From NCBI GenBank assembly GCA_019096065.1, contig JAGUCH010000005.1, forward strand, positions 6,882,001 to 6,946,000: 64,000 nt of DNA, read 5' to 3'. Position 1 is the stretch's first letter; every line of letters starts with the position of its first letter. Of this stretch, positions 24,222-50,730 are shown in pieces. A model generated the notes under the pieces. The model saw only the letters and a program-made list of their open reading frames with translations. It made no database searches and was not told the origin of the DNA. Source of the stretch: Paracyclopina nana (taxonomy: Eukaryota > Arthropoda > Copepoda > Cyclopoida > Cyclopettidae). The position numbers and the translations under genes are program-made.

Positions 24222-24496
24222 ATATTGGGAATAATACTGAGGATCCCATCTACTTAAATGCACATGCAGTGATTGGGCGAGCCAGGATTGTCAAGAAACA
24301 GAAATTTAAGAGTACGGTTGCAGCCCATGTGGCTAACATTAGTTTAAAGGCCCTGGAGCATGAAATGGAGTCATGTTACTGCAATTATTTGGATTCGCAC
24401 GTAATTGTGCAGTTTACGGATATAAATGGTCTTTCTTTTACTGATATGCATTTTTTCAATGCCTATGAGCCATTAAGGGAAGCCACAAGCCCTTGA
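24179..24496 (+). CDS. linker segment of Pol in the -1 frame (a)
   Basis: This frame is open from 24179, overlaps the end of the protease ORF by about 43 bp and runs to a TGA at 24494-24496, with protein-like composition throughout. The only in-frame ATG is well inside (24362). It therefore looks like a continuation of the protease ORF after a -1 step rather than a separate gene. No recognisable slippery heptamer lies in the overlap. A mutation, an unusual frameshift site or a short spliced segment are all possible. Confidence 0.5.
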   Translation, partial: GALTAVTRKGTFPVNIGNNTEDPIYLNAHAVIGRARIVKKQKFKSTVAAHVANISLKALEHEMESCYCNYLDSHVIVQFTDINGLSFTDMHFFNAYEPLREATSP

Positions 24497-25341: not shown

Positions 25342-28300
25342 ACCTCGTATCAGCTAGCCTGGAGCTTTCTAAAGATGAGAGAAATAACCAAAAACTATAT
25401 GATGAGGATTATATTCTACTTTTGAAATTTCCAAGTGAATTTACACCCCTCCGTGTTTTAAATGGAGTAGCAGGTTATACATTTCCATTGAAACCAGAAA
25501 CGATCCTGAACATGGATCTAGAACACATTCCGGATGAGGTCAGAGAAGACTTTAGGGACCTCTTAATAGAATATAAGACTATATTCTCGGAGGATCCTAG
25601 ATCATATAGGCTATGGAATGTCGAACCCATGAAGTTCCAGTTAAAGGATGATAAACCATTAGTGCCAAAAGTATTTAACATGTCGGAGTATGAAACTACG
25701 CAGGTTGACCGTAAAATAGCATTAATGCTGTCATCTGGATTAATTGAAATTGTGGATAAGTCACTTAATAGGTACTCGGCTTGCCCTTGTTTCTTGACTT
25801 CAAGGCCAAATGATGAAAAGCTGCCTATGAAGCAACGCAAGCCTCGGCTACTAGTTGACTTAACATCTTTTAATAAAAATCTGATATTTACGACTTCGGA
25901 GCACATAGTGCCACCTATCCCTACCTTGCTAGGGATGTTATCTAATTCGTGTTTAATGTCATCTTTCGATGTAACATCCGGATACGATAACTTACCTGTG
26001 GACTCTGATAGTGCTGATATGTGCTGCTTTGCAGTAACGTCCCCTCGCAGTATATATAGATCAGTCTTTCTGAAAAGTAAGTCATGCCTACAAGGGATCG
26101 CCATTGCTCCGAGAATGTTCGCAGAGCTCCTCCAACAGGCCCTTAACCCTGAGATATTGCCCTTTACATGTGTATATGTAGACGATTTGGTTGTGGCATG
26201 TAAGAACCCTGGCAAGCCTAGGCCTGCTACATTGGATGATTACATACGACATTTAGGTGATCTGAGGAAGTTGTTTCAAAGCCTCAAGGACTTAAATGCC
26301 CTATTACAAATTAAAAAGACCCAATTAGGTGTTAAAGAAGCTACAGTCTTAGGGCACCTAATATCTATTGATGAAAATGGGATTATGACTATGCGAATGC
26401 CCGATAAATTCAGGTCTGCATTTGATGATTTCCCTATTCCCACAACCAAGAAACAGCTGCAAAAGTTTATTGGAATGACAAACTGGTTAAGCCAGTACTG
26501 TCCTAATATGGCTACATACACAGCTCCATTGCTAGATGTGTTACAAACAGCGCAAGGAAAAGCAGGAAAATTCACTTTCACTGCTTTCCAGGAAAAATGT
26601 TTCTATAAAGTAATAGACGAGATTAAAACGGGTATGTCGTTGGCACTACCACGTTTTAAAGAAGGTTATTTAGTGGTTGATTCTGGGGTAATAAGTACTT
26701 CAGCCTTATTAATGGAGGTGAATGAGGATGGGAAAGCTGTGTGTGTTGGTGCACACAGCGCACGCTTTCCTCTATCGGTTTGCCTCTCATACCACTCATT
26801 TCAACGTGAAGCATTAGGAGTTTTAACAATGATAAACCATTTTAAAAGCATACTATTCGCTTATGAGCGGTTGGTAATAGTTACTGATTGCTTATCTATC
26901 GCTAGCGTACTTGCTAGTTCGTTTACTGGTAAAGATGCATTTACTCATAGATTAGCAGCTCGTATTTATTCCCTGCCTGTAGCATGGAAATTGAGGGCTG
27001 TACCTCGCACAGAGGTAGAAGTAGTTGATGTATTATTAAATAAATACCATCAAACACCAGAAGGTGAAACTGTATTTTATGCGCCTTACTCCATTGCGGG
27101 ACAGATTACGAAGGATATTTATGCAAATAAATACCCTCTGCCCGATGCAATCAAAGATAAGGTGCTAACGACACAGGAATTACTTACACATGTGTATGAT
27201 ACACTTGTGAATTCTGGAACTATGAGTAAGACTCTACTCCAGAAAAGGTTGCATTGCCTAAATGACAAATGGGTTGACATGATCGGCACGAAGCCGCCAT
27301 TTGTGCACGACGACACGTCAACCTTACTTCAAGCAAAACATGATGATGATGAAATTCTTGAGGACGAGATACTTTCTAAATTATCCCATTCATTTCATGG
27401 TGAAGCTGATTTTGATTCGCCAGTGAATCATATAGAAAATAACTTAAGAGTAGATACAGTCACTGTTAAACGGCGAATATCGCCACATTTACCAGGAATT
27501 ACACGCAACCTACTCATTAAGTTGCAACAAAATTGTGAAGAAACACAAAAGATAATAAATCTAATTATGCTTTCGCCTCCAGAGAAAGTACCACTAGATG
27601 TTGCGGTAAAATATCGTGTCCTTGACGGTGCCCTGTTGGTCATTCGCAAGAATGTAAAGTTACCTTTTAGCGTTGCGACCAATACGAAAGTATATATGAG
27701 TATGCCCAACTGTGTGTACCTGATGGCATGTATTCATTTGCTACATAACCATTTGGGAAGTAAAAAGACTAATACTCTTTTTACCCAATCTATGTATTCA
27801 ACTTACTCAGCCAGAATCAGTCGTATTATTATTGGTGCGTGCATGCATTGTGCTTTATACCGCCAAGCTAATACTAGGTTTGTTGGGAAGGGGCGTTTCC
27901 GCATCCCGACTCAGCCATGGGAATTGGTAATGATTGATTTGGCCAAGTTCGATGACACTTTAGTCAAAGGGTCTTCCGCAAAAGACCTGTTAGTATTTGT
28001 CGATGTTTATTCTAAGATGATAATTGCTAAACCACTATTGGATGCTAAATATAAGCAGGTAGCGAATGCTATGGAAGAAGTAATTTCTTTGTTTGGGGTG
28101 CCAAAAACATTACTTGCAGATAATGGTGCCCAGCTAACGACTAATAAGGCCCTCCAACGCCTTGTTGATCGTTATAAAATTAAGGAGTTATGTCATTACC
28201 GAACTTTATCGCCATACAAGCATTCGAACGCTTACGCTGAAAATGCTATACGAATAATAAGGAGTGCTTTAGTCCTAAACTCTAACTCATACAATATGAG

Positions 28301-28556
28301 GTTATGCGATGTGTTTAAGACTTCTATTTACGCAATAAATAATCGCCCTCTTACTTATTTGGCATATACTGATGATAAAGGGGTGAAGATCACCCCCACA
28401 CCTTTTTCGTTATTTTTCGATAAAATGCCGTTCTATCATTTAGGACGGGATGTATTTGAAATACTTAGTGAAAGCGAGGACAAAATTCATAAAGCCGAAT
28501 GGCGTCAACGCATGCGTGAATATGATCTAGAAGAACAGTTCCACTTAGAAAAATGA
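25263..28556 (+). CDS. pol: reverse transcriptase / RNase H / integrase
   Basis: Core polymerase ORF, open from 25263; the first ATG is far inside, so entry by a -1 shift from the preceding frame is likely. RT: the catalytic YVDD is at about 26175-26186, preceded by PRLLVDLTSFN, FDVTSGYDNLPV and GIAIAPRMFAELL, the Ty3/Gypsy pattern. RNase H: LVVDSG at about 26671 and VTDCLS at about 26881. Integrase: HHCC zinc finger (HLLHNHLG; CMHC at about 27842), then catalytic D (MIDLAKFD, about 27933), D (LADNGAQ, about 28119) and E (NAYAENA, about 28239). About 39 residues separate the second D and the E, slightly more than the usual 35. The ORF ends ATGA, overlapping the next start. Confidence 0.92.
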   Translation, partial: ELHYYLRRSYCGYQCQTNSSKSPSELDLVSASLELSKDERNNQKLYDEDYILLLKFPSEFTPLRVLNGVAGYTFPLKPETILNMDLEHIPDEVREDFRDLLIEYKTIFSEDPRSYRLWNVEPMKFQLKDDKPLVPKVFNMSEYETTQVDRKIALMLSSGLIEIVDKSLNRYSACPCFLTSRPNDEKLPMKQRKPRLLVDLTSFNKNLIFTTSEHIVPPIPTLLGMLSNSCLMSSFDVTSGYDNLPVDSDSADMCCFAVTSPRSIYRSVFLKSKSCLQGIAIAPRMFAELLQQALNPEILPFTCVYVDDLVVACKNPGKPRPATLDDYIRHLGDLRKLFQSLKDLNALLQIKKTQLGVKEATVLGHLISIDENGIMTMRMPDKFRSAFDDFPIPTTKKQLQKFIGMTNWLSQYCPNMATYTAPLLDVLQTAQGKAGKFTFTAFQEKCFYKVIDEIKTGMSLALPRFKEGYLVVDSGVISTSALLMEVNEDGKAVCVGAHSARFPLSVCLSYHSFQREALGVLTMINHFKSILFAYERLVIVTDCLSIASVLASSFTGKDAFTHRLAARIYSLPVAWKLRAVPRTEVEVVDVLLNKYHQTPEGETVFYAPYSIAGQITKDIYANKYPLPDAIKDKVLTTQELLTHVYDTLVNSGTMSKTLLQKRLHCLNDKWVDMIGTKPPFVHDDTSTLLQAKHDDDEILEDEILSKLSHSFHGEADFDSPVNHIENNLRVDTVTVKRRISPHLPGITRNLLIKLQQNCEETQKIINLIMLSPPEKVPLDVAVKYRVLDGALLVIRKNVKLPFSVATNTKVYMSMPNCVYLMACIHLLHNHLGSKKTNTLFTQSMYSTYSARISRIIIGACMHCALYRQANTRFVGKGRFRIPTQPWELVMIDLAKFDDTLVKGSSAKDLLVFVDVYSKMIIAKPLLDAKYKQVANAMEEVISLFGVPKTLLADNGAQLTTNKALQRLVDRYKIKELCHYRTLSPYKHSNAYAENAIRIIRSALVLNSNSYNMRLCDVFKTSIYAINNRPLTYLAYTDDKGVKITPTPFSLFFDKMPFYHLGRDVFEILSESEDKIHKAEWRQRMREYDLEEQFHLEK

Positions 28557-30982
28557 AGGCTACTGAAAGACCTTCCTTTAAACCAGAGATTGGATCATTA
28601 GTGTTAGTTATAAAACATCCCATAAATAAACAACGGTATAAATTTATGGATGATTTGTTTGAAGTTATTGACATTGGACAGCATTCGACTGTGACTGTAA
28701 AGCCATACCTTTATGATGGGCTTACTCGTGAAGTAAGCTTAGATCATGTCAAGTTATATCGATTCCATGAACTATATAGATTTCTTCCGGAAAAGTTGTC
28801 CAACCTCTTGAAACGACCTTACACTCCGGAAGAAATTCTACGTAAAAAAGCAAGGAATGAGGTTATCGAATTTCTTGAAGGGGCAGCCCCTGAAAGTCAT
28901 GATTATAGTTTGCGGGGTCATACAAAGGCCTCTAGTATAGTGGCCTCGCAAAGTTCATTGATTTCACAGTCCACATCAATGGACACTGAGCCAAGTGCGA
29001 TTCACCAAACCTATAAGCGCTCTGGTTCTATCCTCATGCAAAAGGCAGCGAGCTTGTTTAAGCCCTCAGATATTTTGCGAATACAGGAGGAAAATAAACA
29101 ACTCGTGCAAAAGCAGTGGGAACAATATGACCGTAAGAAGTTAGAAGAAAAATACCTAGCTGACAATGCTGGTAATAATATTCTCCACAAAGAAGCAAGT
29201 GATTCTTTGTCTGACACTGGCACTGATGATTTTATTGAACAAGCAATTGCACTAAGTGCAAATACAGGGCCCAATGAAGCATTTTATGAGGACATGCTGG
29301 CCTTGAGCCAACGTGGCCCTCCTACTTTTGCTGAAATGGCCCAACAAGAAAGATTATACCCGAATTTACCAAGTGTCAAACCTGACCATATTAGTACTCC
29401 TGATCGCTCGAACGTCAGTGAAGGGACACTTGCAGGGGTCAGCCCTGTAAAGTGGGCCTTTCGTGGCCAATACCGTGATCAACGTGTGCCAGATATACCT
29501 GAAAGTCCGGAGAAATATCACACTCCTGACCAAAGTATGTCTGCAACTCCTAATAAGGACAATGATAATATAGAGGAGATTGTTGAAAAAGCAGCATCTT
29601 TCATCGCACCTTCCAAATTTGACACTGACCTAGAATCTTTATCTGCTGGCCTGGAAAGTATGCAATTAGCACTGCCTACTGATCCATTCGGCGGAAATAC
29701 ACACGATGATGAAAATGAAAGTAGTGATAGTGATGACACAACTACAATTTATTATACTGCTCGTAAAAATCTGCGGCGTACACCGCTGACAAAAAGCATT
29801 AAACAGAATGTTCAAAAAGCAATCGATATTGTACGACGCCAGTTAGAACTCTCACCACGTAAACGGCCTCCCTCTCCACCAATCGATAATCCTATGGAAG
29901 GGCCCAGTGCCCCGAAACCGGAGATTTATGGAGCTGAAGGAGGGGAGCCTCAAGTTCGGTATACTATAATGAAAAGTCCGGTCAGAAAACCTGATTTGCA
30001 ACCAAGAAATAGTGAGTTACCAAATGCGGGAGTACCACAAACTGTGCCAAGCACAAACGTACTTGAGCACTTTTCGGCAAAGGTTACACCTTTGGGTGAC
30101 CTGGCTATGACTGAAAATGAGCACCTTGCTCATCCATCTACTCCTGAGGTTACACACCCCACTGTCAGGCTAACCAGCCCGGTAGTTCCACAACCGGGTA
30201 CTCAGAAGCCACCTGAGGCTGCTGTACGAGCTCCGTATGAACCAGAAAAGTTGTCTCCATTACGTTTTCTTCCTCATAACCTAAGGAGAAGAAAAAACGT
30301 TAACTATCGCTCCCTGGCAGGGTTTCGAGAGTATAATAAAAATAACGTACCTGCGGGTCCTCCTGCGATTGTTCAGCCTGATCCCCTGGAAGCATTGACT
30401 CGTCCGGAAGCAGCATTGACAGCTGAACAGAATACAAGTCCTTTACAGAATGTTCAACAGCTTCTTGACCAGCCTAGTAGCTCGGCAGCCACACCAATTG
30501 CCGGATCAAAGGAACCAGAATCCTCGGCCGCTGTCCAACCAACAGTTGAACCCGAGATTAGTGAGCCCACTCCAATACGGATCCTTCCCAGACGACAACT
30601 GCGGGAGAGAAAGGAAACTGTAGATTACAGGGAGTTAGCGGGCATAAGAAAGTATGGGAAAGAGAAGAGCAAAGCTGGTAAAGCACAAAAATACTTTCCT
30701 AATATTCCACGAATAGCTCCTTTAGATCGGGAGGAAAAGGAATTCGCCCGTGTTAGGTTTACAAATACGAACCAAAGGCCAGACCAAAAAGAGAGAGAGT
30801 TACTAGAAGAGGTAATTCCTAATTGGAAACTGAATAAAAACATGGCTGCAGTCCATGATTATATTCAGTTTCTCAAAGCGACTGGCATGGATCACCAAGA
30901 TGATAGCAACATAAATGAAATGAAGAAGCTGCGTCTCACCTATGATGAACTATACAAGCTAGCTTTTAAGAAGTTTAAATAG
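28553..30982 (+). CDS. integrase C-terminus plus long low-complexity tail
   Basis: 809 codons, with the ATG overlapping the RT/integrase stop (ATGA). The first about 80 residues (GSLVLVIKHP ... REVSLDHVKLYR) resemble the SH3-like C-terminal DNA-binding part of retroelement integrases, so the integrase is divided between two ORFs. The rest is Pro/Ser/Glu-rich and probably disordered. It contains a short motif twice, RRRKNVNYRSLAGFREY and RERKETVDYRELAGIRKYGK, each after LR(R/E). The C-terminal about 90 residues are charged and helical. No chromodomain is visible. The tail may be a targeting or structural protein; I do not recognise it. Confidence 0.7.
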   Translation: MKATERPSFKPEIGSLVLVIKHPINKQRYKFMDDLFEVIDIGQHSTVTVKPYLYDGLTREVSLDHVKLYRFHELYRFLPEKLSNLLKRPYTPEEILRKKARNEVIEFLEGAAPESHDYSLRGHTKASSIVASQSSLISQSTSMDTEPSAIHQTYKRSGSILMQKAASLFKPSDILRIQEENKQLVQKQWEQYDRKKLEEKYLADNAGNNILHKEASDSLSDTGTDDFIEQAIALSANTGPNEAFYEDMLALSQRGPPTFAEMAQQERLYPNLPSVKPDHISTPDRSNVSEGTLAGVSPVKWAFRGQYRDQRVPDIPESPEKYHTPDQSMSATPNKDNDNIEEIVEKAASFIAPSKFDTDLESLSAGLESMQLALPTDPFGGNTHDDENESSDSDDTTTIYYTARKNLRRTPLTKSIKQNVQKAIDIVRRQLELSPRKRPPSPPIDNPMEGPSAPKPEIYGAEGGEPQVRYTIMKSPVRKPDLQPRNSELPNAGVPQTVPSTNVLEHFSAKVTPLGDLAMTENEHLAHPSTPEVTHPTVRLTSPVVPQPGTQKPPEAAVRAPYEPEKLSPLRFLPHNLRRRKNVNYRSLAGFREYNKNNVPAGPPAIVQPDPLEALTRPEAALTAEQNTSPLQNVQQLLDQPSSSAATPIAGSKEPESSAAVQPTVEPEISEPTPIRILPRRQLRERKETVDYRELAGIRKYGKEKSKAGKAQKYFPNIPRIAPLDREEKEFARVRFTNTNQRPDQKERELLEEVIPNWKLNKNMAAVHDYIQFLKATGMDHQDDSNINEMKKLRLTYDELYKLAFKKFK

Positions 30983-31062
30983 AAGTTTTGTAAGTAAGGA
31001 CGTGATGACGGTAATCGTAGTTCAATTTTATGGGATAACTACCTTTACTTTGTCAGTCCAAA

Positions 31063-31571
31063 ATGGGCGCACCGTTTTACCAACCAAGTGCACCCAAAAT
31101 TATATTATGTAATACGTCATGCGGACTTCAAGTTGTTCGCTTGACAAAAAGATCATACAATACTAACGGGCAATATAACTTCGCATGCCCGTCAGTAATT
31201 TACGATATTCATAAAGGTAATGATAAGTTGCTGAAAAATACATTGACAGCAAGAAAACGACTAACGAAACATACTTTTTGCAGTTCGTTAGCGGTTCTAA
31301 AAGTATGTATAAAAATGATGGAAAATGATGGATGCCACAAGGCATTGGATTTGGACTTCCTCTAAGGCTTGTTCAACCCTTCAACAAACCAAACCTCGCT
31401 TGTTTTGACAAAATAAATGAAGTTTGTGTAGGTTCTTTTTACAGTATTGATATTGATGGGACAAATAATTTTGTCCTGTTTCCTGACAAATACCGATGCA
31501 AATCACGCGTTGACCGGTACTTGCATGTGCTTGCCCCATACTACTATAGTAGGAGGTCAAGCTTACGATAA
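31063..31571 (+). CDS. two small overlapping ORFs of unknown function
   Basis: ORF 31063-31365 (100 codons) is followed by ORF 31332-31571 (79 codons), overlapping by 34 bp and again offset by -1. Both have plausible composition with several Cys residues, and neither resembles a known family. They stand alone after the long tail ORF. They could be a real small gene with a frameshift or remnants of one. Confidence 0.3.
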
Positions 31572-34260
31572 ACAATGGGCCGATTGGCCTGAATAAAGTT
31601 AAGTGTTATATAAGTTATATAAAGAAAATAATATGAACACGCCATGCAAGAGGGAAGTTGCAGATGGGCGTCATACCAGAGGGGCGAATGCCCCTTCTGA
31701 ATAAGTTATGTTTTGAAAACTATGGTTAAAGCTCTACTGAGCTATGTCCAAATGAACTGCTATCCACTCCATGCCTCGCGTGGGTTGATAGCTATTGGGA
31801 CTTTCGTACCTAAGTACAGCAAAAGTTGGCACTAGGCACTGTGCAAGTGGGACACAATAACCCTCACAATACGTAAGAGGACTTGTGTTGGCCGCATTAT
31901 TGTATAAAATCTTGGAACGATATTGAAAAACTCTCAAACGAGCTGACGAAAAGTTGCACACCCTCTGAAATGAGGAGTGGGCATAGAAAAAAAAAAGAAT
32001 GATTATAAATCACACAAGTTCTGGCATGGAAACGATACCACAGTAGTATATGCCATAAAACACAAACTCTGTTGCAACGACTACTGTGCCTATAATATCA
32101 GAGTGTCGCGACCATGACCTGGTTGCATAACGCAGGTCTAGTCGTGACGCCTCCAGACTTTGAGAAGGATGGAACATGGAAATCTGTACAAAAATGGGAT
32201 TCATCTCCCTAAAAAGGGATTTTGAATGAAATACTTAACACAGTTTTTTATGCTTGGATGAATAAAAATGCCCATATGCTGGTGAAACCATCAGCTTTGG
32301 ATACAACTGGAATATCTTGGAGGAGAACAAGTGTTTCCCCATAAAATACCATTTTACATTTCATTTGCCCAAACATTTTTTGTGTGGCAAACGAAATTGT
32401 AATTATAAAAGAAAATAAAGTTCAATATATGCCGCCTTTTTCTTCTTACTAAGGCACGATTTAGTTATTGACATCATGGATGGTGCCCGCAGGCGCCATC
32501 GATTAAATAAAATTGAATAAAATTAGCCTAACCGCTAAGATCTTTTATAGTTAAAGATTCGAAAACATACTTACCTGAATTTTGTGTGACTGCTCACTGC
32601 AGTTCCCACAAAATGAAGAAAATTGTGGCGGGGGGGGGAGTATATATACGTAGCCGCAGGAAATGCAGCCTGCGCCCCAAAAATTTCACAAAATTTGAGC
32701 GCCCTCGTGCTCTGAGAAAGTATTGTAAACAAAATTTCTAGAAAAAACTGGAAATGGCAAAACTATGAACCGGAATACTAGCACATAAATGTCGCAAAAT
32801 CTGCTTCATATATTATTATTAGTGCTAACCGAAATTAGCTGAAAAGATTGGTGCTGATAACCTCAATCTTTTAAATCAATTTCGGTTACGAGCACCCGAA
32901 CTTGATGCACGCATCAAGACCGAGCTGGAATGCAGAGCTATAATAGCGGTGCAATTCAGTGATAACAGATAAAAAATAACCCATGAGTCTGTTCAATATG
33001 GCTAGACAAAAAACTTTTGAGCAAGATCAACTGAAATGTGAGTTGCATTGCGCAAAGACGCTGAGCCAGCTTTTGTCGAACAGATACCCGACTCCAAGGG
33101 GGGCAAAAAGTTGTTATGGAACAAAAGATCCAGAGACGCTCCTAAACTAGAAAAATCTAGTTTGAGCGGCTTCGCTTGGAGACGTAGAATGGTGGCGCCA
33201 CCATGCGCCTAACCACAAACTAAAAACGTTTTGCCCAAGGCTAAAACGAACAATGAAGATTGGAACCGCCGGTGCACCTACAATTCACCTGGGAAGGTTT
33301 TTGAACCGAGCTAAACTCAAATTATGGCCACACTCGGCTCGAGTGGTGATTCAAATTCCGTGATTTATTATGCGAGTACAAGGAATAAAATAAAACGTTG
33401 CATTAAAGTCAAGAGAATCAAAATGACTAATGTTATAATGATACCGCTAATGACCGCCAGATGGACCAACAGATGAAAAGGTTCAAAGTGCACAAAGATT
33501 AGGCATATTGTTAAATAAAATAAGTGATGAAATTCGGCTATCTTGCAGTCGCCACATGACTCCCCTCTTTTTTGATGGAGAATTTGAGTTATGCTAAACA
33601 CAGCACTAGCAAAACAAGCTAGGTCAGCACAAATTGTAGACTGACATGTGAGAAAATGAAAAATACACGTCTTCTAGCTTGATATGGAAAAGAATATTGT
33701 GCCATTGCCTAGTGCTTGAGCTTGCTTTTGCTATGTGCAATGACATACGGCCGGTTTTCCAGTCCTGTGGGGATGATACGAATCCCAAGCCACCTTCAAG
33801 GCCTAGCTGGAATGCGGGACAATTTCCCTTGCATCAAGGCCGAGCCGGAATGTCAATGGAAAAAATGCTGCTAAAAAGCATTGATACCCCATAAGCACCA
33901 ACGCTCGGCCGGTAGTAATCGCAGACACTCAAGTATGGTGCTGCATCAAGCCCGAGCTGGAATGCAGGGCTATAATTAGTCCTCATGAGACTGTTCTTGA
34001 ACATTGAAGCATCGTTTGCAGAGTCAAGGCCGTCAAGGTCGAGCTGGAATGCTAGCTTATTTACAGGCCCGAATCTGTGGATTTGGGCCGCTAATGATTA
34101 ATTATGCAACTAAGATGCAATTCTTGGCACCTGATACTTGTTATTCGCGGTCCGCTTGGCCGTGTAATGTAAACTAATTGAGATAATTAGCTAAGTTCTG
34201 TTGGATTATGCTGAGCTGCTGAGCTATCTACTGAGGTAAACGCGAAATGAGTTGCGGCAA
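31572..34260. other. non-coding region of the LTR element with an iterated motif
   Basis: About 2.7 kb without a gene I can support. Notable content: a poly-G run at about 32627-32637 followed by a tatatata box at about 32640-32650, and a short palindrome TTGATGC-AC-GCATCAA near 32902. Five copies of a motif CATCAAGnCCGAGCTGGAATG lie at about 32912-32934, 33795-33815, 33832-33852, 33943-33965 and 34032-34052. Two of these copies continue with gCAG(A/G)GCTATAAT. Such clustered sites in an LTR element may bind a protein or form an enhancer or insulator; that is inference. Confidence 0.5.
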
Positions 34261-34296
34261 ACACAGTAGACACAAAAAGTACAAAGGACGTGGACT

Positions 34297-35004
34297 TTTA
34301 TTGTCCCATAAGGGAGGCCTCCTGGCTGGTGGGGGTGGGCTGGCCTTGGGCCACGTTGGGGCCAGCCCTGGCCGGTGCGGTGGCCTACCGATAACGAGAC
34401 GATTTCTGCAATAGAAAAGAATGAATATAGTGAAGCTGTGATAGCTTAAGTGAATAAGTTAGACTTACTAGACGACTCCTTCGAGGGGGTCCTCCTCCCC
34501 CACAAACAGGTGGAGGACCCAGGCCGAGACCCTGGGCAGGTCGGTGGGCTCGTCCCACACCCGGCTGACGAGCCGATACAGGGCCCTGGGCCTGGCCCGG
34601 TGGACCCAGGCGAGGGCGGGCAGGGCCACCAAATAATAGGTGGCCGCCCCTGCCACGTTCAGGGCCACGCCCTAGAGGATCTCTTCGGCCTGTAATACGA
34701 GAAAAAAGTCGAGCTTTGACCAAATAGATAACGAATAATGCACTTACGAAGCCCTGAACGGGGCAGGGAGGGCACGCCTCCTGATGGCCCAAAGGGGCTG
34801 CGGGCGGGGCCGCGGGTGGCTGGGGCCACCCCGCCGCGGACTCGGCCGCGGGGGGCGCCCCTACGGGAGCCTCAGTGGCGGGGGCCACTGTTGTGGTAGA
34901 AGGATTCTACATTCCCAATGAAAAAGATACAGTTTTACGAAAGGATTCAACGGATTTTAATCGAAATAAAAACTTACGAACAAGCCGTGAAGGAAGCCCG
35001 CCAT
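34297..35004 (-). pseudogene. antisense spliced gene 2: short Pro/Ala-rich protein with in-frame stop before a membrane segment
   Basis: Minus-strand gene with good GT-AG introns. Exons: 35004-34978 (ATG, nine codons), 34906-34748, 34689-34469, and a 3' exon from 34405 containing AATAAA (34297-34302). Exon 2 is Thr/Pro/Ala-rich. Five codons into exon 3 a TAG (34672-34674) stops the frame. Past it the same frame encodes a hydrophobic segment (GAATYYLVALPALAWVH) and a basic, acidic-ended tail. Without the stop the layout would parallel antisense gene 1. The exons are extremely GC-rich while the introns are AT-rich. It may be a broken gene or a natural short product; the stop is seen directly. 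Confidence 0.5.
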
Positions 35005-35487
35005 GTTTTGGACTTTTTAGTAAACAAGGCACGCTACCAGAAAAATCCGGTCTGAAATCGGCCAAATTTTACGTGAAAAAGCCTCTTTTTATTACGCGCC
35101 TCTACGTGAAGTCTGGGAGCGCTGTTAGATGAAGGTAACGGCTTCGCTAATACCTGCTACCCCACTTGAATTCGAATTCTTTATTACATATATATAGAAT
35201 ACAAGTACTATAGTATATACTCGAGTATATTGGAAGCTTTGAGATCAAAATAAAAACAAGACGAGTGCAATTGCCAAAAGCCGGCTTTGAAGTCTGCAAG
35301 TCTGCGAGGCCTCGAAAAGTTTGCGAGATCTCGAAAAAGTGGAAAAGTCCGCGAAGACTGCAGGAAATGCAAGTATAAAGTGAGAATTGGCACGCGATAA
35401 GAAGAACAAAGTGCAAAAGTTACAGAAAACAAGCGTAAATGCGTGCGAAAAGAGAGTGATCTTCGTCTTGCAAGTTCATGGCGATCC

Positions 35488-36537
35488 TTAGTTGGCATCG
35501 CTGTTAACGTCTTGGGAAGCCTTGGACCCAGCTGAGTCCCGGTCCTCATCTGCGATCGAGAGAGGTTCAGCCTCATTGACTTCGTCTTTGTCCGGAATGG
35601 ACCCTGCTGCCGAATCCAAGCGACGGTTATCTCGGGCTCGAGCCCGGCGAGATCGTTTCTTCAAAGTTCGCGGCCCGCACCCTTCAGTAGCAGGTACCTG
35701 AAAAGGTGCATGAAAAAGAGTACATGAGTAATCCGTTTACAGTTCATAAATTGATAGGTCCTTACCCAGCCCTTGGGATTAGGGACGTCATAGATGTGGG
35801 CCAGCCCGGACATGATGCTGGGATTCCGGCGTAGTGTTCCATAGGGGTCCATGGCAGCCATTGCCATTTGGAGCGAATGGACATCAGGGTCACGCATAAT
35901 CGGGGCTGGTGGCAAAGCTCGGACCTCTGGTGTACAGCAGTGAAATACCGCTGCATGCTCAGATGGGGCCTTTGTTGGAAGCATTTGCGTGGCTCCACTG
36001 GCAGCCGCTGACTCCGTACGAATAGCTCGAAACGTGGCCACAAACCTACGGCACCATCGTGATGTCCACACGCAGAAGTACACCAACATGCCAAGCAAAA
36101 TCTGTAAGGAAGAGGTGGTAAATAAAATTTGGCCATAGTTGCAAAACTAGCCATAAAGTTGAACTTACCAAAGCCATCCCAATGGAGGCTCCAAGACCGA
36201 TCCACCCCATTACACCGTATCGGTGATAATTGAAAACCTCATCGATCCAGTCCCTCTGAGGGGCAACGGGACGATAACCATTTGGTACCGCTGGCATTAA
36301 ATCTCGGGGGTCAAACACCTCCACTTCAAAGGGATCGACAGGAGCTGGGTCAAACCCAGGTCCACCCTCAGCTTCAGAAATGCCACTCTCAGGAATAGCA
36401 ACAGTAGGACCTACTGGGCCCGTGGTTTGAGAATCCACTAGCGCAGGATCCACCGTTGATGGCTGGATTGGAACCTCAGTGGGAGCCTCTGTAGAGCTGC
36501 CCTCTGGAGTTAGAGAAACCCAGGCTAAAATGACCAT
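35488..36537 (-). CDS. antisense spliced gene 1: predicted type I membrane protein
   Basis: Minus-strand gene inside the retroelement. Exons 36537-36169, 36101-35766 and 35697-35488, with GTAAG donors and CAG acceptors at both introns, give 305 codons including the stop, all phases consistent. A short hydrophobic N-terminus is followed by a Thr/Pro/Glu-rich outer region. A transmembrane helix is assembled across the first splice junction: exon 1 supplies GLGASIGMAL and exon 2 continues with a hydrophobic stretch followed by basic residues. The tail is Arg/Lys-rich near the end of exon 2 and start of exon 3, and ends acidic. I do not recognise the family. The junction falling exactly within the helix is strong evidence that the gene is truly spliced on this strand. 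Confidence 0.7.
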
Positions 36538-36902
36538 CGCGAGTTGATTGGGATTGGAATATCTCTAGAAAAGTGACCAGCTTGGACGAAGTCCGATGGG
36601 AGAATGATCAACATTAAGTGAAAGCTGAGAGTTGCAACTGCCTGCTGCACCCTCGCTACGTTTCTCGATCTAGGAAGTCAAAAATGTCCGTGCAACTTAA
36701 CGATGAGCGTGCGCGCACGCGCCCATCTTATAAGGAAGTGGTATAAGTCCTGTTACCTTGTTCTTATTTACCTAGACAAAAAATGACCTTGGGTTTTTTA
36801 AAAAGGGACAATTCACGCATTTAAATGCCCGAGAGTGTGGGGCATACCTGTAAGGATGCGTATAAAAAGGGCAGTTTACGGCCCTACAGCAACAGTCTGG
36901 AA
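36538..36902. promoter_or_regulatory. divergent promoter of the accessory module
   Basis: Lies between antisense gene 1 and the sense accessory gene. It contains the 14-bp palindrome GCGTGCGCGCACGC (36707-36720), a self-complementary CTTATAAG (36727-36734), and a strong TATA box TATAAAAAGG (36861-36870) about 33 bp before the chosen sense start at 36903. These suggest transcription independent of the LTR. Confidence 0.55.
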
Positions 36903-37946
36903 ATGAGCGATAGCTTGAATAGCCTCGATAACCTAAGGATGTCTCTGATCACCGAATCCATGGAAGGAGAATCTGCATTGGTCTCCATGATGGAGACTGA
37001 TAAGACTGGAGAGTTCAACGAGCATGAGGTTAGTGAGCTCCTAAAGGATGATGAGCCAGTTATGGATCGCAACATGCCTGCTGTCAATATTGAGAATCAA
37101 GCCCAGAATCAGACGACTAGGCACCAGGACCAAGAGGAACCCCTCGAGGTCCCATTGGAAAGGGTATCCTCCAGTTTGGGGTACCCATTGCCATTTGAGG
37201 ATTTGATCAGGCCTCCCCACATGGAGGGTCTACAGGCCTATGCGAGGGAGGCGAGCCGGACCAGAGCTACTATACAGCAGCATTATGATGCAAGCCTGTT
37301 GAAGATAGCTACGAAAGAGGTCATGACTGTTGGAAAGGAGGTGCCTTTTGACCTGACGATTAGGATAAATGGAGAACCCTATGAACGGACCGAGCCTCGT
37401 AGGCCATTGAAGGTGAAAAACTTTGACTGCATTGAATTGATTATCGAGCCAGTGAGTAAAGGAGGGGAGATTCCCGATTTTCTTGTTATATTTCCGATGC
37501 TAGACAATCTACCAGTCTACAACTTGCCTGACAAGATGGAATATGACGAGAATGTCCATAAGTTGGCCAATGTCAGGAGTTGGTCTGCCGTCCAGAGCCC
37601 AACAGCTGTTGGGTATTATGTGCATGGAATCCGTGGACAGGGTGGAGCTCAACTCCCTGTAGTAGTCTCCAAACATTATACCAAGCGAGGCTGCATTCAG
37701 ATCATGCCAACATTGGACTCATCATTTTGGGATCCGCGGATGTTCCATGATTTGACGTCGCCTTACGTGCAACTGTATGTGGGACCGCCGTCCTGCCTTA
37801 ACAATGGCGTGGCTCAAGCACCACGAAAATTGGACGTGAAGATCGATATGACCGCACTCCTGCCTACCATGGTAGCCCAGTTTGTCGATCGAGCCATTGG
37901 GACATATCCGCAATGCGTGAGGTACACAGCCGGGCCAGGCCCCTAA
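36903..37946 (+). CDS. accessory protein of unknown function (possibly virion structural)
   Basis: The frame is open from 36825, but TATAAAAAGG at 36861-36870 lies inside that extension, so I take the Met at 36903 (MSDSLNSLDNLRMSL), giving 347 codons. The N-terminal about 110 residues are acidic and Ser/Glu-rich. The rest alternates hydrophobic and polar residues, with many Pro/Tyr turns (LVIFPMLDNLPVYNLPD; VQLYVGPPSCL; KLDVKIDMTALL), suggesting a beta-rich domain. The style recalls viral jelly-roll capsid proteins, but no diagnostic motif is present. The 3' end overlaps the next ORF by 34 bp in the -1 frame. No signal peptide or membrane segment. Confidence 0.6.
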   Translation: MSDSLNSLDNLRMSLITESMEGESALVSMMETDKTGEFNEHEVSELLKDDEPVMDRNMPAVNIENQAQNQTTRHQDQEEPLEVPLERVSSSLGYPLPFEDLIRPPHMEGLQAYAREASRTRATIQQHYDASLLKIATKEVMTVGKEVPFDLTIRINGEPYERTEPRRPLKVKNFDCIELIIEPVSKGGEIPDFLVIFPMLDNLPVYNLPDKMEYDENVHKLANVRSWSAVQSPTAVGYYVHGIRGQGGAQLPVVVSKHYTKRGCIQIMPTLDSSFWDPRMFHDLTSPYVQLYVGPPSCLNNGVAQAPRKLDVKIDMTALLPTMVAQFVDRAIGTYPQCVRYTAGPGP

Positions 37947-38191
37947 AACTAGCCGCGTTTGTGGAGAAGTCTTGGCAACAAAAACCAAGGCGAGGACCTA
38001 GACTGTACGCCGATGTAGCGCGCGGGCGCCCTTTTGGCGCAGGAACGAATGGACCAGACATTTTGCACTCCAAAGTCGATAAGAATAAGGAGCGTGTGAA
38101 CTATCTCCTCCAGGCTAAAATGGAGGAAATGACCCCCAGCGACATCAAGGTATTCACTGAGGCGATTAATGGATTTGTCGGGCAGTTCTAA
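37913..38191 (+). CDS. small basic ORF overlapping the accessory gene
   Basis: 92 codons, starting at an ATG 34 bp before the end of the preceding ORF, one frame back. The N-terminal half is basic (SWQQKPRRGPRL) and the C-terminal half helical (KVDKNKERVNYLLQAKMEEM). It may be a separate small nucleic-acid-binding protein or a C-terminal extension reached by a -1 shift. Not recognised. Confidence 0.45.
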   Translation: MREVHSRARPLKLAAFVEKSWQQKPRRGPRLYADVARGRPFGAGTNGPDILHSKVDKNKERVNYLLQAKMEEMTPSDIKVFTEAINGFVGQF

Positions 38192-38361
38192 AAAATGAAA
38201 TTACCCTTCAGAATCGAATTGTACATATTGATAAAATACTTGGTTGTGGGCCAATACTCTTAACTTTACCATACATGTCGACATGCTATGATAATAAAAA
38301 CCAATGGAAAAAGCAAAGAATGTCTAGACATAGTGAGGTGGCGTGCCCATACTTGTCTGGG

Positions 38362-38369
38362 TTTATAAG
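38362..38369 (+). promoter_or_regulatory. TATA-like box upstream of the envelope-like ORF
   Basis: TTTATAAG stands 57 bp before the envelope-like ATG, a spacing that would leave a 5' UTR of about 25-30 nt. The same TTATAAG word is used in the divergent promoter at 36728-36734. Confidence 0.4.
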
Positions 38370-38425
38370 GAAAGTTAGCGGTCTTGGGGCCCAAATAGTT
38401 TCTGATCAGAGTTTGTGCTGGTAAG

Positions 38426-40310
38426 ATGTCGTTTGAATTGGCCTTCATACTCACCCTTTTGGGATCTGGCACTTGGGGCCTGTCCAACTACCCAAATACT
38501 CAGTTCGTACTGGATGAGGCACTTTGCCATTCCGGACATGCCCTAGTTCCAGTTAGAGTGGTCCATCATCCTAGAATGGTGAAAAAGGCTATGGTGTTAG
38601 ATACGAAGGATTACAGTGGCCTTTTGCAATCAACAATTGGCGTCCTGAATAATATTGACACCGTGGTAAAAGAAGTTAAGGACAAGGAGGACTTGGTCCA
38701 TATTGGGAATATGTTGGCAGTTGGAGAAGAGAGTACCCCTAACACCATCGACAAAGCTTGTTCCAAACGTCAAGGGTTTGTACCATTTGCCCCTAAAACT
38801 TATGAAGACATGGACGTTTTTCTAGAACTATTACGTTATACGGCAAAGGAAAGCCCTCTTGCCACTAAGGTAACTTTATGTGTAAAGTTTCGGATCGTCA
38901 ATGAGGTACCTATGTCCTTGGATGGGAAAACCACATTTCCTCAAGTGGGGTATGAGAAAGCCGGATGATGAGATAATTGCAGGTTACCCGTGTATCACGG
39001 GGTATTTCACTGTGGGACAAGGGCCGAGGACCATGACGTCAGTTAAAGCCCATGCACCACACAGTGATGGGAAGGCAACAATATGTGTTCAAAATGACTT
39101 TGTCATCACCCATAAGGACTTTGTCAAATCTGAATTGTCTGGGAGGAAAAGCTTCCTTGAAAAGGCCTACAACGCCGTGATGGCCCTAGCAGAATCAGGT
39201 AAATCGACAAAATTCACCGATGGCATGATAGCAAATACCACTCCACTGAGAGTACCACCGAAAGTTTCTTTGGCCTTTCGACTACTGAAAGGTTTTAGCA
39301 AGGTATTTTTGAAGTCTGGATTATTACCAAATGATCTGCAGCAAGTATTGTCATATGCTGACACAGTTGTGCAATTTGCCAGAAATTTTGGGCAGGCAGG
39401 CACACGGTTCAGCTTACCAACTCTGGCGCATAATAGTGACAGAAATGCGGCCACCATTACTAATGTTTATGAACCTTTGGCGAACACTGAGCAGAGTGGA
39501 GACTTTGTCACTCAGGGAATAGTTGGGTATAAAGAAATGGACCCTACCCCTGAGGTCACATATCATATTGTGTCACGAAGCAAAAACGGATTCTTACTGC
39601 ATGATAGGTATTTGACCCGCCGAAATGATCTAGTGTTTGTGTCTCGGGAAATACCCATCTATAGTGATTGCTTTGTTCATGACCATAATTTAACCGTGTG
39701 TGAAAACAAGGACTTTGACTTGACAGAAGGAGTCCAGCACTGTGCTAAAGTACTTTTAGGGCTAGCTCTGGGTGACCCTTTTGACGCCTGTGAATTAGAG
39801 CCACTTAAAACTAACACGCTCACTGATGTGGGATGTGCTAATTATAAAGGGTTCTTAAATTTGGTCTCAAGTGCAATGATTAATAGGACTTGTTTAAGTG
39901 ACTTCAAGAACTCGGTGGTATTGGAACCAGGATCCTATCAGATCCTTAGCAATTGTAAGGTTTCCCTTGGAACTCAAAGTACTGGATACGAGGACTCTCC
40001 TTGGGAAAGTGATATGGTGAAGTTCTTTACAAAATTCCCTGAAGATGAACTTGGAGGTTTATTCAATAATTGGGAAATAATCCTGACGGTGAGCCTATTG
40101 TCTGCAGCACTGGGATTCACGTGTATGGGCATATTGATTTGGAAAAGGCGGCGAGTATGCAGCCGATGTTATGATGATGGAGGCTATGTGAGACCTAATA
40201 CGTCCCGCCCACGGCTTCGCTACAATAGAGGAGATCGCAAGAAAGATGCTGACCAAAATCAGCGCCTTACTGTGCGAATGAGGGGCCTGGGAGGCGCGAC
40301 GTTAGTATAA
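38426..40310 (+). CDS. envelope-like type I glycoprotein, frame broken near 38950
   Basis: Two overlapping ORFs (38426-38968 and 38901-40310) together look like one surface glycoprotein. The first starts with a signal peptide (MSFELAFILTLLGSGTWG). The second holds a large ectodomain with many Cys residues and N-glycosylation sites (NTT, NLT, NRT). Near the C-terminus are a membrane helix (IILTVSLLSAALGFTCMGILIW) and a basic cytoplasmic tail starting KRRR. The shift between the frames is +1, within 38901-38968. No obvious slippery site is present, and the one short GT-AG interval there (33 bp) would not restore the frame. A mutation or base-call error is likeliest. No furin site or fusion peptide is evident, and I cannot tie it to a named fusion-protein class. 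Confidence 0.65.
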
Positions 40311-40402: not shown

Positions 40403-40414
40403 AGGGCCGGGGAA
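40403..40414 (+). promoter_or_regulatory. polypurine-tract-like stretch before the 3' LTR
   Basis: AGGGCCGGGGAA directly precedes the 3' LTR. It is purine-rich except for two Cs. It occupies the position where plus-strand synthesis is primed in LTR elements, but it is short and interrupted. Confidence 0.4.
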
Positions 40415-41340
40415 TGATGGGCAATAAGTACATCATGTCTCTGGTGCACGTTACGACCAGAATAGGACTTGATTGGACCCCTCCAGTGGAACCTGTGGAA
40501 ACCGTGGAGCCCGTGGAGCCGCCAGAAGTCCGGAAGGTTGCCCATTCACCGCTACATCACCATCTCAAAATCACAAAACCTCCCTTCTCAAAAAACACCT
40601 TTTCATCTCCTCCAACTCTCTGATTGTTGCTGCTGCTGCTGCTACTACCTATGCGTTGAGCCTTACCTATGGCAATTCACCTGACCTTGAGTGGAGAAGT
40701 TGCTAGCCATTGTGTGGAGGAGTTGCTAGCTGCTACATAGAGAGGACCTGCAGCTGCATGATAACGGAGAGAAGCAGATGGAAGCTGATGGAACTTGCTG
40801 CGATGCATCGAGTGGAGAAGAAGGAGAAGACTCGGGGAGTTCGATGGGGGACTTCAGAGAAACAAGACATGGACCTAGTGCACATGGCCCATTGAGTGAG
40901 CTCTGCCCTGCTATTGCCCCACCAAAGTTCTCCAAAGTGTGCTGAGGCATGAAGAAGATGGCCACAAGAATATTTACTGCAGTACTTATTTCTTTGTATT
41001 TGCTGCCATTAATTTGTGTGGTGTTAAAAGCCGAGTGAATAAGACAACCTTGTTGGATTTTGTTCGACCATAACTTGTATAGAGGTTTCCTGGGCAGTTA
41101 TGCATCCTAACCTGATGCTGTTAAGGCCGCTGAGGACTTGGATAGGAGGCCCAATCACAGGTCTACAGCACTGAAGCTTGCCATGTGATGTATCTCGCCA
41201 GAGTTGGAGCACCGAGGCTGCGGCTTTGGGTCCAAGGCGGGTAGACATCCGGCCAGCACCCGGAGGCTGCGAACGGTACCGCGACCATGAAGCCGATGCT
41301 AACCATCCTAGGCTTCAGAGGGTGTGACCGTCGCACACCA
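40415..41340 (+). repeat. 3' LTR
   Basis: 926-bp copy of 18264-19189 in the same orientation, with no insertion, deletion or substitution noticed. It is followed immediately by CATG (41341-41344), the right copy of the target duplication. Confidence 0.95.
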
Positions 41341-41835: not shown

Positions 41836-44800
41836 TCAGACTATTGTTTTGTCTTTGAGGCTGAAAAATTGTGAAAATGTCAAATCAATATCATTTTCAT
41901 TGACATTAATTCTTTTACCTTTATAAGAGACATTATCTAGTAGATTGGGACACTTATTTTCATCCTGAAACAGATCAAGATTTTTGTTTACTGCATTAAA
42001 TAATTTTAAAAGTGAAAATCACCTTTAGATCTGGTGAAGCCAGAAAAATTGTTGTTCTAATTGTCCTGCCATTTAATGGTTGAATTGGCCTAAAATTACC
42101 ACCAAGTGGAGCCCTCGGATCTGCTGCATCACCTTGGTTCAGTTTTCGCAATGAGTGCAGCTGCAATATAGGAAATTTGGGCAATATTGTCATCAAGGAC
42201 GCAAAAACCATTCCATGGCTCGATCTCATATTCATACAGCAAAGCTATTCAAAGTTCAGCAAGGGCATTTGTTTTATCTCAGCTCAGCAACTATTATGTC
42301 AATTGGCGCCAAACTTGTTAGGATTCCTCCAGTCATTCCATTTGTGCTTGATATTTATTGCTACTTTAGTAACAGAAAGACATTAAATCTAGTACTAATA
42401 AACATACAAGCTTTTAGGCCTGCAAGTTTTAAGGCCAACGGCTTAAAAAAGAATGGTTTTATCAAAGGCTCATTATCTTTTAGACTTAACAGGTTTTAGA
42501 CTACACAGCTTTTAGACAACACAGGTAATCTACAAAACCAGATTTTAGACATAATAGATTTTAGACAAAATAAGTTTAAGACAAAGCAGGTTTTTAGACA
42601 AAGCAGGTTTTTAGACAAAGCAGGTTTTTAGACAAAAACAGGTTTTAGACATAACAGGTTTAAGACATAAGATGTTTTAGACAAAATAGGTTTGTAGACA
42701 AAACAGGTTTTAGACAAAACAGGTTTTAGACGAAACAGGTTTTAGACAAAACAGGTTTTAGACAAAACAGGTTTTAGACAAAACAGGTTTTAGATCAAAA
42801 CAGGTTTTAGATCAAAAACAGGTTTTAGACCAAAAACAGCATTTAAACAAAGCAATAAATATAATTTTGACACACAAACAACAATTAAACAAAGCAGTTT
42901 TTTGGCATAACTGCAGCTTTTAGACAAGAATCCTTTTAAGGGTGCTTAAAATGTTTTTCTGGAAATGCGTCCTTAGTTGTGCCTTAGGATTGAAAGACAC
43001 CTAAGCAAGATTGGCGCCAATTTGTGCAATTTTTGCTGAGATCCAAGCCAACAAATACTCTTGCTTCACTTCATGTCAGCCTTGCTTGATGAGTTTGGGA
43101 ACGAGCTCATATGTTGGTATGCAAGACTTACTTGTTTGTGTGTGATGTAGATGGGTCTGTTCATGATAATCCAGGTTACAGTTTCACTGCAGCCAGGCTC
43201 AGTACGAGAGCCCTCATAAGTCATGTAATCAGGCGTTTCTGGCAACAATTTGGCCACTGTGACATTCTCCAGCCTTGAGCTGTCACCTGGTGGCAAAAAG
43301 TGGCAAAATCTCCTTTATTCTGCTTCTGTACCATTGCTTACCTCTGTATTGGGCTGTGAGTGCACTGTCTGTGATTTTTCTCAGCTCGGTATTTGACAAT
43401 TGCCCCAATTGGACGAGAATTGACAAACCAACTAGGCCATTTGGGTGATGAGAGGCCAAAGACGAATTGTCATACAAATCGGCATTGTATCCAATCATTT
43501 GCAACTAAACAGAAATACCGTTTACAAAACTTTACAATACTTTGTTGATCAACTTTGATTTTAGTACACAGGGCTTTCGATAACCTGCGCCAAGTTCAGC
43601 TGGGTTGCATAACTTTTTGACTGAAATTTCTCGTGGTAACCTATAAGGTTACTATCAACCTTTTGAGGTTACTAATATACTCTATGGGTTACTTAGAAGT
43701 TCGTTTAGAATTTACTACTAGAAGTAACCTGTTGTTGTTACTGATAACATCTTGAGGGAATAATATAGGATTATACACCTCTAGGCTGGAGGATAACACG
43801 AATTATTTTTTAGTGTCAAGTGACAGATCACGAGTGAGCGGAGCGAACGAGTGATTGGCACGAGACACTAAAAAATAATGAGTGTTATCCGACAGCCTAG
43901 AGGTGTATAATCCTATTACTATTAGCTACCCCCAACATTTCAAGCATTGGGTAAAATTTAATTTAGGTAAGTTTTTTGGCTTGATTTTAGCAAGATATGC
44001 CTTAAATTTTGCGACTCGCTTACTGATGCATGAGCTCATCAAAGTTGACCCAGCGGGCTAGCCTGCAACATGCGCTTATTGCCGTGCGTCTTGCAACTGC
44101 GCCTGGCCGGCCGGTACGGCCATGTATATGCAGCGCTCGCCAGTTGCTATTTGTATTTGACCCGGCTCTTAACTAGCTTTTCATGAAGCAATTCGTTGGC
44201 TCAGAGGTAGAGCGTCGGCGCGCCAACCAGGTGTCCCGAGTTCAAATCTTGCTAGATCCTTCCTTTTTTCTATCATATTCAAATGAAATAGATGGCGCAA
44301 GGATCAAGTAAGGTATAATGATCATTATCCACTTGCAGATGCATAATGTTCATTATCCTCCTCTAAATAAAACAAGAGTGAAAAAATCATGGAAAATATA
44401 TGGTCGCAACTTATGTAATGCTCAGCCGTCTCAGCTAATAGTAATATCCTTTTTAAGTTACCAAAAACCTTTAGAGGTTACTGAAACATTTTAAGGTTAC
44501 GAATAACGTTTTGAAGTTACTCATAACCTCTTGAGGCAACTAATGACCTTTTGAGGTTATTAATAACCTCTTGAGGCAACTACAACTATTTGAGGTCACT
44601 AATAACCTCTTGAGGCAACTAAAACTATTTGAGGTCACTAATAACCTCTTGAGGTTATTAATAACCTCTTGGGTCAACTAATAACCTTTTTAGGTTATTT
44701 ATAACATTTTGAGGTTACTAAAACATTTTGAGGTTACTAAAAACCTTTTGAGGTTTCCTTAAAACTTTTGAGGTTACTTATTCTTTTGAGGTTACTCTAA

Positions 44801-50340: not shown

Positions 50341-50730
50341 AAAGTCATGCACTTTGGGTAAAAAAGTCACTTTCGGTCAAATAGTCCCTTTTGGTCAAAA
50401 AATTCCTTTTGGTCAAAAAATTCCTTTTGGTCACTAAGTCCCTTTTGGTCACTAAGTCCCTTTCGGTCAAAAAGTCACTTTCGGTCAAAAAGTCTCTTTC
50501 GGTCAAAAAGTCACTTTCGGTCAAAAAGTCACTTTCGGTCAAAAAGTCACTTTCGGTCAAAAAGTAACTTTCGGTAAAAAAGTCACTTTCGGTAAAAAAG
50601 TCACTTTTGGTCAAAAAGTCACTTTCGGTCAAAAAGTCACTTTCGGTAAAAAAGTCACTTTTGGTCAAAAGTCACTTTCGGTCAAAGAGTCACTTTCGGT
50701 CAAAAAGTCACTTTCGATCAAAAAATCAAG
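50340..50730. repeat. 18-bp minisatellite (TTTCGGTCAAAAAGTCAC)
   Basis: About 21 tandem copies, mostly exact at tttcggtcaaaaagtcac, with related variants at the left end. The 18-bp period keeps frames open on both strands, which yields artificial hexapeptide-repeat ORFs. Confidence 0.9.

Follow-up and report, generated by a model that had tools for sequence, protein, structure and literature searches.

A 64,000-nucleotide stretch of the Paracyclopina nana genome (contig JAGUCH010000005.1, positions 6,882,001 to 6,946,000; the whole stretch is called the window below) contains one Ty3-like long terminal repeat (LTR) retroelement of 23.1 kb (18264–41340, plus strand), and this element carries two spliced genes on the strand opposite to its gag, pol and env-like genes. 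We give a probability of roughly 0.6 to the reading that it comes from a lineage of large Ty3-like (retrovirus-like) elements with an env gene and with coding on both strands, and that the antisense genes encode membrane accessory proteins. The original prediction, made from the sequence alone, had proposed two antisense spliced protein-coding genes, and their reality is borne out by frame-specific ratios of nonsynonymous to synonymous substitution (dN/dS), by retained GT–AG intron borders and by the pattern of gaps among copies.

Both genes lie on the minus strand in three coding exons each, with every intron in phase 0; gene 1 has two introns and encodes 304 amino acids. Their parts are:

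36728–36733, minus strand: TATA-like box (TATAA) ahead of gene 1, kept in 45 of 48 copies
36169–36537, minus strand: gene 1 exon 1, a Ser/Thr/Pro-rich ectodomain and the first half of the membrane helix
35766–36101, minus strand: gene 1 exon 2, the second half of the helix and a tail with PYGTL and IYDVP tyrosines
35488–35697, minus strand: gene 1 exon 3, a basic stretch and an acidic end
35180–35185, minus strand: AATAAA, poly(A) signal of gene 1
34978–35004, minus strand: gene 2 exon A, MAGFLHGLF
34748–34906, minus strand: gene 2 exon B, Pro/Ala/Thr-rich
34468–34689, minus strand: gene 2 exon C, consisting of AEEIL, an in-frame UAG, a membrane part, a conserved tail and a stop followed by UAA
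34672–34674, minus strand: the invariant in-frame UAG of gene 2
34406–34468, minus strand: possible intron in the 3' untranslated region (UTR) of gene 2, its donor overlapping the stop codon (TAG TAA G)
34297–34302, minus strand: AATAAA of gene 2, present in 24 of 24 covering copies

The searched genome comprises 92 Mb in 10 contigs, and the alignment of copies from it consists of the window copy as reference, 40 near copies and 7 divergent copies (L059–L065), 48 in total; the dN/dS, stop and gap comparisons were all made against the window copy, so that they share history and the counts are not independent of one another. Gene 1 has a dN/dS of 0.19 among the near copies, whose 12,107 codon comparisons are free of stops, and of 0.17 at a dS of 1.15 among the divergent ones, with a single stop in 2,072. 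Four of its five other frames give values of 0.96–2.4, and the near copies show 293–821 stops in them. For exons B and C of gene 2 the ratio is 0.14 in near copies (one stop in 3,155) and 0.25 in divergent copies (none in 808), and the non-mirrored other frames give 1.2–3.8. The sense gene S1, used as a positive control, gave 0.08 and 0.09, respectively. GT..AG borders are kept in all 48 copies at both introns of gene 1 and at intron 1 of gene 2. The gaps follow the same exon structure in the divergent copies, where triplet and other gaps number 26 and 2 in the exons of gene 1 and 2 and 35 in its introns, and 10 and 3 in the exons of gene 2 and 0 and 23 in its introns. In the near copies the corresponding figures for gene 2 are 20 and 11 in exons (389 nt) and 3 and 69 in introns (123 nt), and the introns of gene 1 (111 nt) have 1 and 41.

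It could be argued that the antisense frames and their introns arose by chance or are fossils in a non-coding part of the element, since gene 1 is broken in 9 of the 48 copies and the spacer between gene 1 and gene 2 has gathered 149 non-triplet gaps in near copies. Such features would not be expected to hold dN/dS at 0.14–0.25 in one frame, to stay free of stops in all near-copy comparisons of gene 1, to keep GT–AG borders in all 48 copies, to confine exon gaps in divergent copies largely to triplets and to have homologues in related families. We therefore put the chance of this explanation at practically nil and regard it as already refuted by the dN/dS, splice-site and gap data. As a separate observation, dS is uneven along the module in L059–L065 (1.15 in gene 1, 0.64 in S1 and 0.29 in gene 2), a pattern that suggests recombination between subfamilies.

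The two genes also keep their company elsewhere in the genome, as a check proposed with the original prediction had asked of other copies. A strict test leaves gene 1 intact in 36 of the 48 copies; three more have a stop displaced by one base, and counting them brings the total to 39. Genome matches were counted as rows, a few of which are pieces of one copy; there are 58 for gene 1 exon 1 and 81 for gene 2 exon C, and their strand was compared with that of neighbouring reverse transcriptase (RT) and env matches (84 of 105 RT rows and 84 of 92 env rows were used). Gene 1 is antisense to nearby RT and env matches in 53 of 58 rows and gene 2 in 75 of 81; with one further RT fragment counted, these become 54 of 58 and 76 of 81. 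The remaining six gene 2 rows include four with either RT or env opposite and two with neither, one of which stands beside a same-strand env match while the other is isolated. The latter, at C6:6501190–6501393, is a family-B-type exon C with no listed RT or env nearby, and could be either a truncated element or a separate copy. Viewed from the other side, 7 of 84 env rows and 9 of 84 RT rows have no opposite gene 2 match nearby, and six of these nine RT rows are of the C type described below.

The RT matches fall by identity into groups at about 86% (family B), 65% (C) and 50% (D) relative to the window family (A), and one locus was read for each: L066 for B, L068 (2.2 kb) for C and L067 for D. 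Gene 1 was found in all four families and gene 2 in three, and in each of the four a phase-0 intron lies within the membrane helix of gene 1. At the family B locus, gene 2 exon C has 68% identity to that of A (tblastn 1.6e-26), and gene 1 (blastp 3.7e-7 against A) repeats the plan of a Thr-rich ectodomain, a helix split in phase 0, a tail ending in IYDVLRPLGQ and a basic exon. In family D, tblastn recovers gene 2 (1e-10), and the gene 1 helix is interrupted at the same position; the gene 1 protein matches a divergent A copy (blastp 3.4e-6) and is not significantly similar to the window protein. At the family C locus, an antisense frame encodes an ectodomain rich in sequons and a helix that a phase-0 intron interrupts, and we call this frame a gene 1 homologue from its position and plan; tblastn with the gene 1 proteins of A, B and D gave no match there. 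Gene 2 was undetectable at this locus, and no gene 2 match lies near any of the six C-type RT matches. The ectodomain of gene 1 at L068 has an additional phase-0 intron.

Because the module holds the same place in families down to 50% RT identity, we take it to have been present before these families diverged, unless old recombination carried it from one to another. This bears on the proposal of a recent capture, in which host or DNA-virus genes entered the element as cargo. Its introns, promoter-like boxes and poly(A) signals do resemble those of a cellular gene pair, and no relatives of S1, env or gene 1 are known; but the module is resident in the element lineage, own-genome searches gave no convincing host paralogue, and RT and env lie opposite in 75 of the 81 gene 2 rows. 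Recent capture is thus unsupported and the cargo label unsuitable, and we consider a recent origin of this kind very improbable. An ancient capture, before the families split, would still be compatible with these observations.

The product of gene 1 is predicted to cross the membrane once, between an ectodomain that is Ser/Thr/Pro-rich or prone to glycosylation and a tail bearing tyrosine motifs. Its helix is completed by splicing, as had been proposed: the best 19-residue hydropathy is 2.21 for the spliced product and 0.82 for either exon alone. To say that only splicing completes it goes slightly too far, because exon 1 read on into the intron would reach 1.73. Across families A, B and D the helix scores 2.2–3.3 and is followed by positive charges, and Ser, Thr and Pro make up 31% (A) and 50% (B) of the first 100 residues. 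Spliced gene 1 had no match in a large protein database and no Pfam family at E ≤ 1; the profile searches suggested for the products also returned no Pfam family for gene 2 exons B and C or for the env part. Between A and B gene 1 retains 24% identity as against 46–51% for env and 47% for S1, and is the fastest-evolving gene measured. The single poly(A) signal first reported for the antisense pair is present at the end of gene 2, but it is not the only one, for gene 1 has its own, with AATAAA or ATTAAA 269–338 nt past the stop in 10 of 10 copies checked.

The tail of gene 1 invites the idea that the antisense products are membrane signalling or trafficking factors whose tyrosines recruit SH2-type or clathrin adaptors. 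The tyrosine of IYDVP, in a motif that we take to be of the kind SH2 domains prefer, is present in 48 of 48 A copies, followed by D in 41, E in 6 and K in 1, and then by V in 47 with one gap; Y-D-V recurs in the otherwise unalike tails of B (EPIYDV) and D (EPVTYDV). Yet 51 of the 111 exon 2 residues are invariant within A, so that the column is conserved without being special. One copy has F in place of the upstream tyrosine, YDV is absent from family C, which has EYNAPP, and short motifs arise by chance. A role in adaptor recruitment is accordingly conceivable, and we remain doubtful of it.

Gene 2 is distinguished by its in-frame UAG, which is present in all 39 A copies that cover the 18 bases of this site and also at the family B and D loci read. 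It stands shortly after a strong intron 2 acceptor, in the context AEEIL-UAG-G in A and B and GFD-UAG-A in D, and is followed in frame by a conserved membrane exon and then by a double stop, UAG UAA. A T-to-C change in the UAG would keep its acceptor and lose the stop; none is seen in the 39 copies, while the acceptor of intron 1 varies freely between T and C (27 to 21 copies), and for this reason the stop itself seems to be selected. The five codons ahead of the UAG are identical in 37 of the 39 copies, with one synonymous and one replacement change in the others, and family B differs by one synonymous change. We had first taken the UAG to be the real acceptor of exon C, a view set aside because these codons are nearly unchanged; for the same reason both readthrough and use of the UAG as an alternative acceptor are kept as explanations. 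The UAG and the double stop together point to a short form of gene 2 without, and a longer form with, the membrane part. Exons B and C of gene 2 and exon C of family D had no Pfam family at E ≤ 1, and exon C of gene 2 had no relative in viral contigs and none worth naming among Protein Data Bank (PDB) sequences.

The possible 3' UTR intron with a stop-overlapping donor (TAGTAAGT) is seen in families A (window 34406–34468) and D (L067:303–363). A further coding exon of gene 2 at 34405 and below was considered, and this stretch is treated as untranslated because nearly all of its gaps are non-triplet (31 to 0 in 16 near copies and 20 to 1 in 7 divergent copies).

The original prediction placed sense genes with TATA boxes of their own back to back with the antisense genes, and this arrangement is confirmed. 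The sense features concerned are:

36861–36867, plus strand: TATAAAA box of S1, present in 48 of 48 copies, with similar boxes upstream of S1 in L066 and L067
36903–38191, plus strand: S1 gene, about 458 open codons in many other copies and two frames in the window copy
38362–38369, plus strand: TATA box ahead of the env-like gene, seen in 6 of the 8 copies inspected, the most divergent included
38426–40310, plus strand: env-like gene with a signal-like N-terminus and a C-terminal membrane anchor (both read by eye), interrupted in the window copy

The proposed box at 36861 stands in every one of the 48 copies. That at 38362 was found in most copies and is missing from L060 and L062, which have unrelated or shifted sequence at that point. 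The window frames 36825–37946 and 37913–38191 correspond to a single S1 frame in many other copies and are frame-shifted in the window; the env-like frame likewise extends over 637 open codons in many other copies. S1 had no match in the large protein database and no relative worth naming among PDB sequences, and the env part (38901–40307) had none in Pfam or the large protein database and none worth naming among PDB sequences.

If the element does code on both strands, the LTR would presumably drive gag and pol, TATA boxes of their own would drive S1 and the env-like gene, and the two antisense genes would be read off the other strand from internal promoters, their transcription and any promoter of gene 2 being assumed. 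Splicing would join the membrane helix of gene 1, and gene 2 would yield short and membrane forms by readthrough of the UAG or by its use as an alternative acceptor. The antisense introns would persist by an established logic: because genomic RNA holds them as their reverse complement, where they do not stand as splice sites, they survive reverse transcription. The two products may serve as surface accessory proteins on the producing cell or the particle, working with the env-like protein, and may evolve fast through meeting host factors; the rapid divergence of gene 1 from A to B fits a surface protein that does so. Judged from the sequences, with location and partners inferred, membrane accessory proteins working with env have about even odds.

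A different function is suggested by reports that retroelement antisense RNAs can act as RNA and that the HBZ RNA is bifunctional (PMC7264820, PMC10186651), as far as the text of these articles available to us goes. By analogy, the antisense RNA itself might be what matters here, through pairing with genomic RNA or interference with silencing or sense transcription, with the proteins secondary. Selection in our data acts on amino acids, however, and the introns and the spacer, which would pair equally well, gain gaps freely; we find this explanation unlikely.

Several observations weigh against the two-strand, membrane-protein reading that we prefer. The nine broken copies of gene 1 mentioned above are what a family with dead copies would show. 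The mirrored sense frame of gene 1 also has a low dN/dS, of 0.29 in near and 0.35 in divergent copies (317 stops in 11,985 and 86 in 2,058 comparisons), and so does that of gene 2, at 0.16 and 0.43 (117 stops in 3,123 and 34 in 807); this is expected because the third positions coincide. In the near copies, non-triplet gaps (14) exceed triplet ones (9) in the exons of gene 1 (915 nt), as is expected when some copies are dead, and the comparisons with the window copy are, as stated, not independent. Hydropathy gives weak values for the membrane part of gene 2 (1.57 in A and 1.53 in B). Structure predictions made from single sequences for S1 and the env part have a predicted local distance difference test (pLDDT) score of 31, so that no fold supports a function, and the promoters are sequence matches to consensus boxes, none being established for gene 2.

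Taken together, the parts would describe a lineage of retroviruses or similar elements of animals that truly code on both strands. Each strand would hold two of the four accessory genes, polymerase II promoters would lie internally, and orientation would protect the antisense introns; of the antisense surface proteins, one would be mucin-like and built like a receptor, with phosphotyrosine adaptor motifs, and the other would be switched between soluble and membrane forms by a conserved, recoded UAG. That full combination is possible, and we would rather bet against all of its parts holding at once.

The remaining features of the element are:

18264–19189, plus strand: 5' LTR, 926 bp, TG...CA, with CATG outside as the 4-bp target duplication
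19193–19210, plus strand: primer-binding-like site whose complement ends in CCA, read by eye
20443–23007, plus strand: gag-like frame of 854 amino acids, called from position and order, with no Pfam match
23007–30982, plus strand: pol region with Ty3-type protease, RT, RNase H and integrase, interrupted in the window copy
40404–40414, plus strand: polypurine-rich tract preceding the 3' LTR
40415–41340, plus strand: 3' LTR, identical to the 5' LTR

After pol come about 3.3 kb without a frame of at least 150 amino acids, then gene 2, gene 1, S1, the env-like gene and the 3' LTR. RT exceeds its Pfam cut-off (3e-13), and the Ty3-type protease (1e-3), RNase H (1e-4) and integrase (2e-7) each fall below theirs; Ty3 is the best solved relative of pol (1.6e-23), and a search of viral contigs found no homologue of it. 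Two LTRs, a short target duplication, a primer-binding site, a polypurine tract, the order protease–RT–RNase H–integrase and an RT closest to Ty3 (from matches, not from a tree) place the element with the Ty3/gypsy-type (Metaviridae-like) elements. Open frames of more than 2,640 codons surround 12 RT matches elsewhere, compared with 1,097 codons in the window copy. By its identical LTRs the window copy is young, yet its pol, S1 and env frames (23007–40310) are interrupted where many other copies are open for longer; genuine decay of a copy that was mobilised in trans could account for this, as could assembly indels. Within the frame that follows the integrase, at 30500–30580, ARAGORN calls a tRNA-Asn without Rfam support, probably a false positive.

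Around the element lie tandem-repeat arrays (42478–42854, 44435–45152, 50314–50743, 53069–54131 and 57561–58117), and about 2 kb upstream of it is a host exon with SH2 and PTB domains (tensin-like; 14670–16127). Kelch repeats occur at 9485–10120. The plus-strand frame at 7894–8376 has a weak pesticin/phage-lysozyme-like match (Pfam 3.8e-5, 24.1 bits; cut-off 25.8) and is possibly a horizontally acquired lysozyme-like gene in an animal genome. Three of four contig ends inspected carry a (TTAGG)n telomere-like repeat, which points to an arthropod, and the fourth a different repeat.

Antisense genes in LTR elements have precedents. Antisense additional open reading frames (aORF-3R) occur in the plant Ty3 elements Grande, RIRE2 and Retand, gene23 of Grande has its own promoter, and the known products are nuclear or TRP28-type proteins, according to the main texts of two reports in which the word intron does not appear (PMC7264820, PMC11963269). 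The present element works like these in having a conserved antisense gene between pol and the 3' LTR; it differs in its two multi-intron antisense genes, their putative membrane products, its animal host and its env-like gene, and no homology of the TRP28 kind emerged, gene 1 and the gene 2 exons having no Pfam family at E ≤ 1. We would liken it to the plant elements, not file it as a member.

Among retroviruses, HBZ of human T-cell leukaemia virus 1 (HTLV-1) and the related APH genes are antisense, spliced and protein-coding, HBZ starting in the 3' LTR and encoding a nuclear bZIP factor, in the account available to us (PMC10186651). The genes described here share the first three properties, but there are two of them, both lie between the LTRs, and their products are putative membrane proteins; the promoter candidate, a sequence match to a TATA-like box, is internal, and gene 1 has a helix and no Pfam domain. 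Human immunodeficiency virus 1 (HIV-1) has an antisense gene as well, ASP, which encodes a membrane protein, lies opposite env and is not known to have introns. It is overprinted opposite sense coding sequence, whereas the antisense genes here occupy their own stretch and carry introns.

Other animal elements carry additional genes as well. Errantiviruses or iERVs, the env-bearing Ty3-like elements of insects, have Envelope as a third gene in the logic of an infectious retrovirus, with env a spliced open reading frame of baculovirus F type, as far as the consulted part of the report describes them (PMC12992720). A gene of envelope kind in addition to gag and pol is common to both; in our element this env-like gene is preceded by a TATA box of its own, searches detected no relatives of it, and there are antisense genes besides. 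LTR elements of bdelloid rotifers carry additional ORF3s, none of them described as antisense or intron-bearing in the accessible text, whose one antisense passage concerns small RNAs (PMC5408684). Extra genes in an animal LTR element are thus shared. A limited search of the open-access literature turned up no animal LTR retroelement described as having antisense genes with introns, and in the sources as available to us neither the plant aORF-3R nor the deltaretrovirus set has two multi-intron antisense membrane-protein genes with internal promoters.

The common view is that retroelements cannot keep introns, as their RNA is spliced before reverse transcription. Here the way round this loss is to place intron-bearing genes on the other strand, and it has been held long enough for RT to diverge to 50% identity. 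Annotation that reads the sense strand only, or unspliced frames only, will miss such genes. Antisense coding would be a stable part of the gene plan in an animal retrovirus-like lineage, and the retention of these genes under selection in many copies and in related elements points to a second gene set that such elements can operate from the opposite strand. This lineage would offer a clean system for asking why a retroelement needs LTR-independent membrane proteins.

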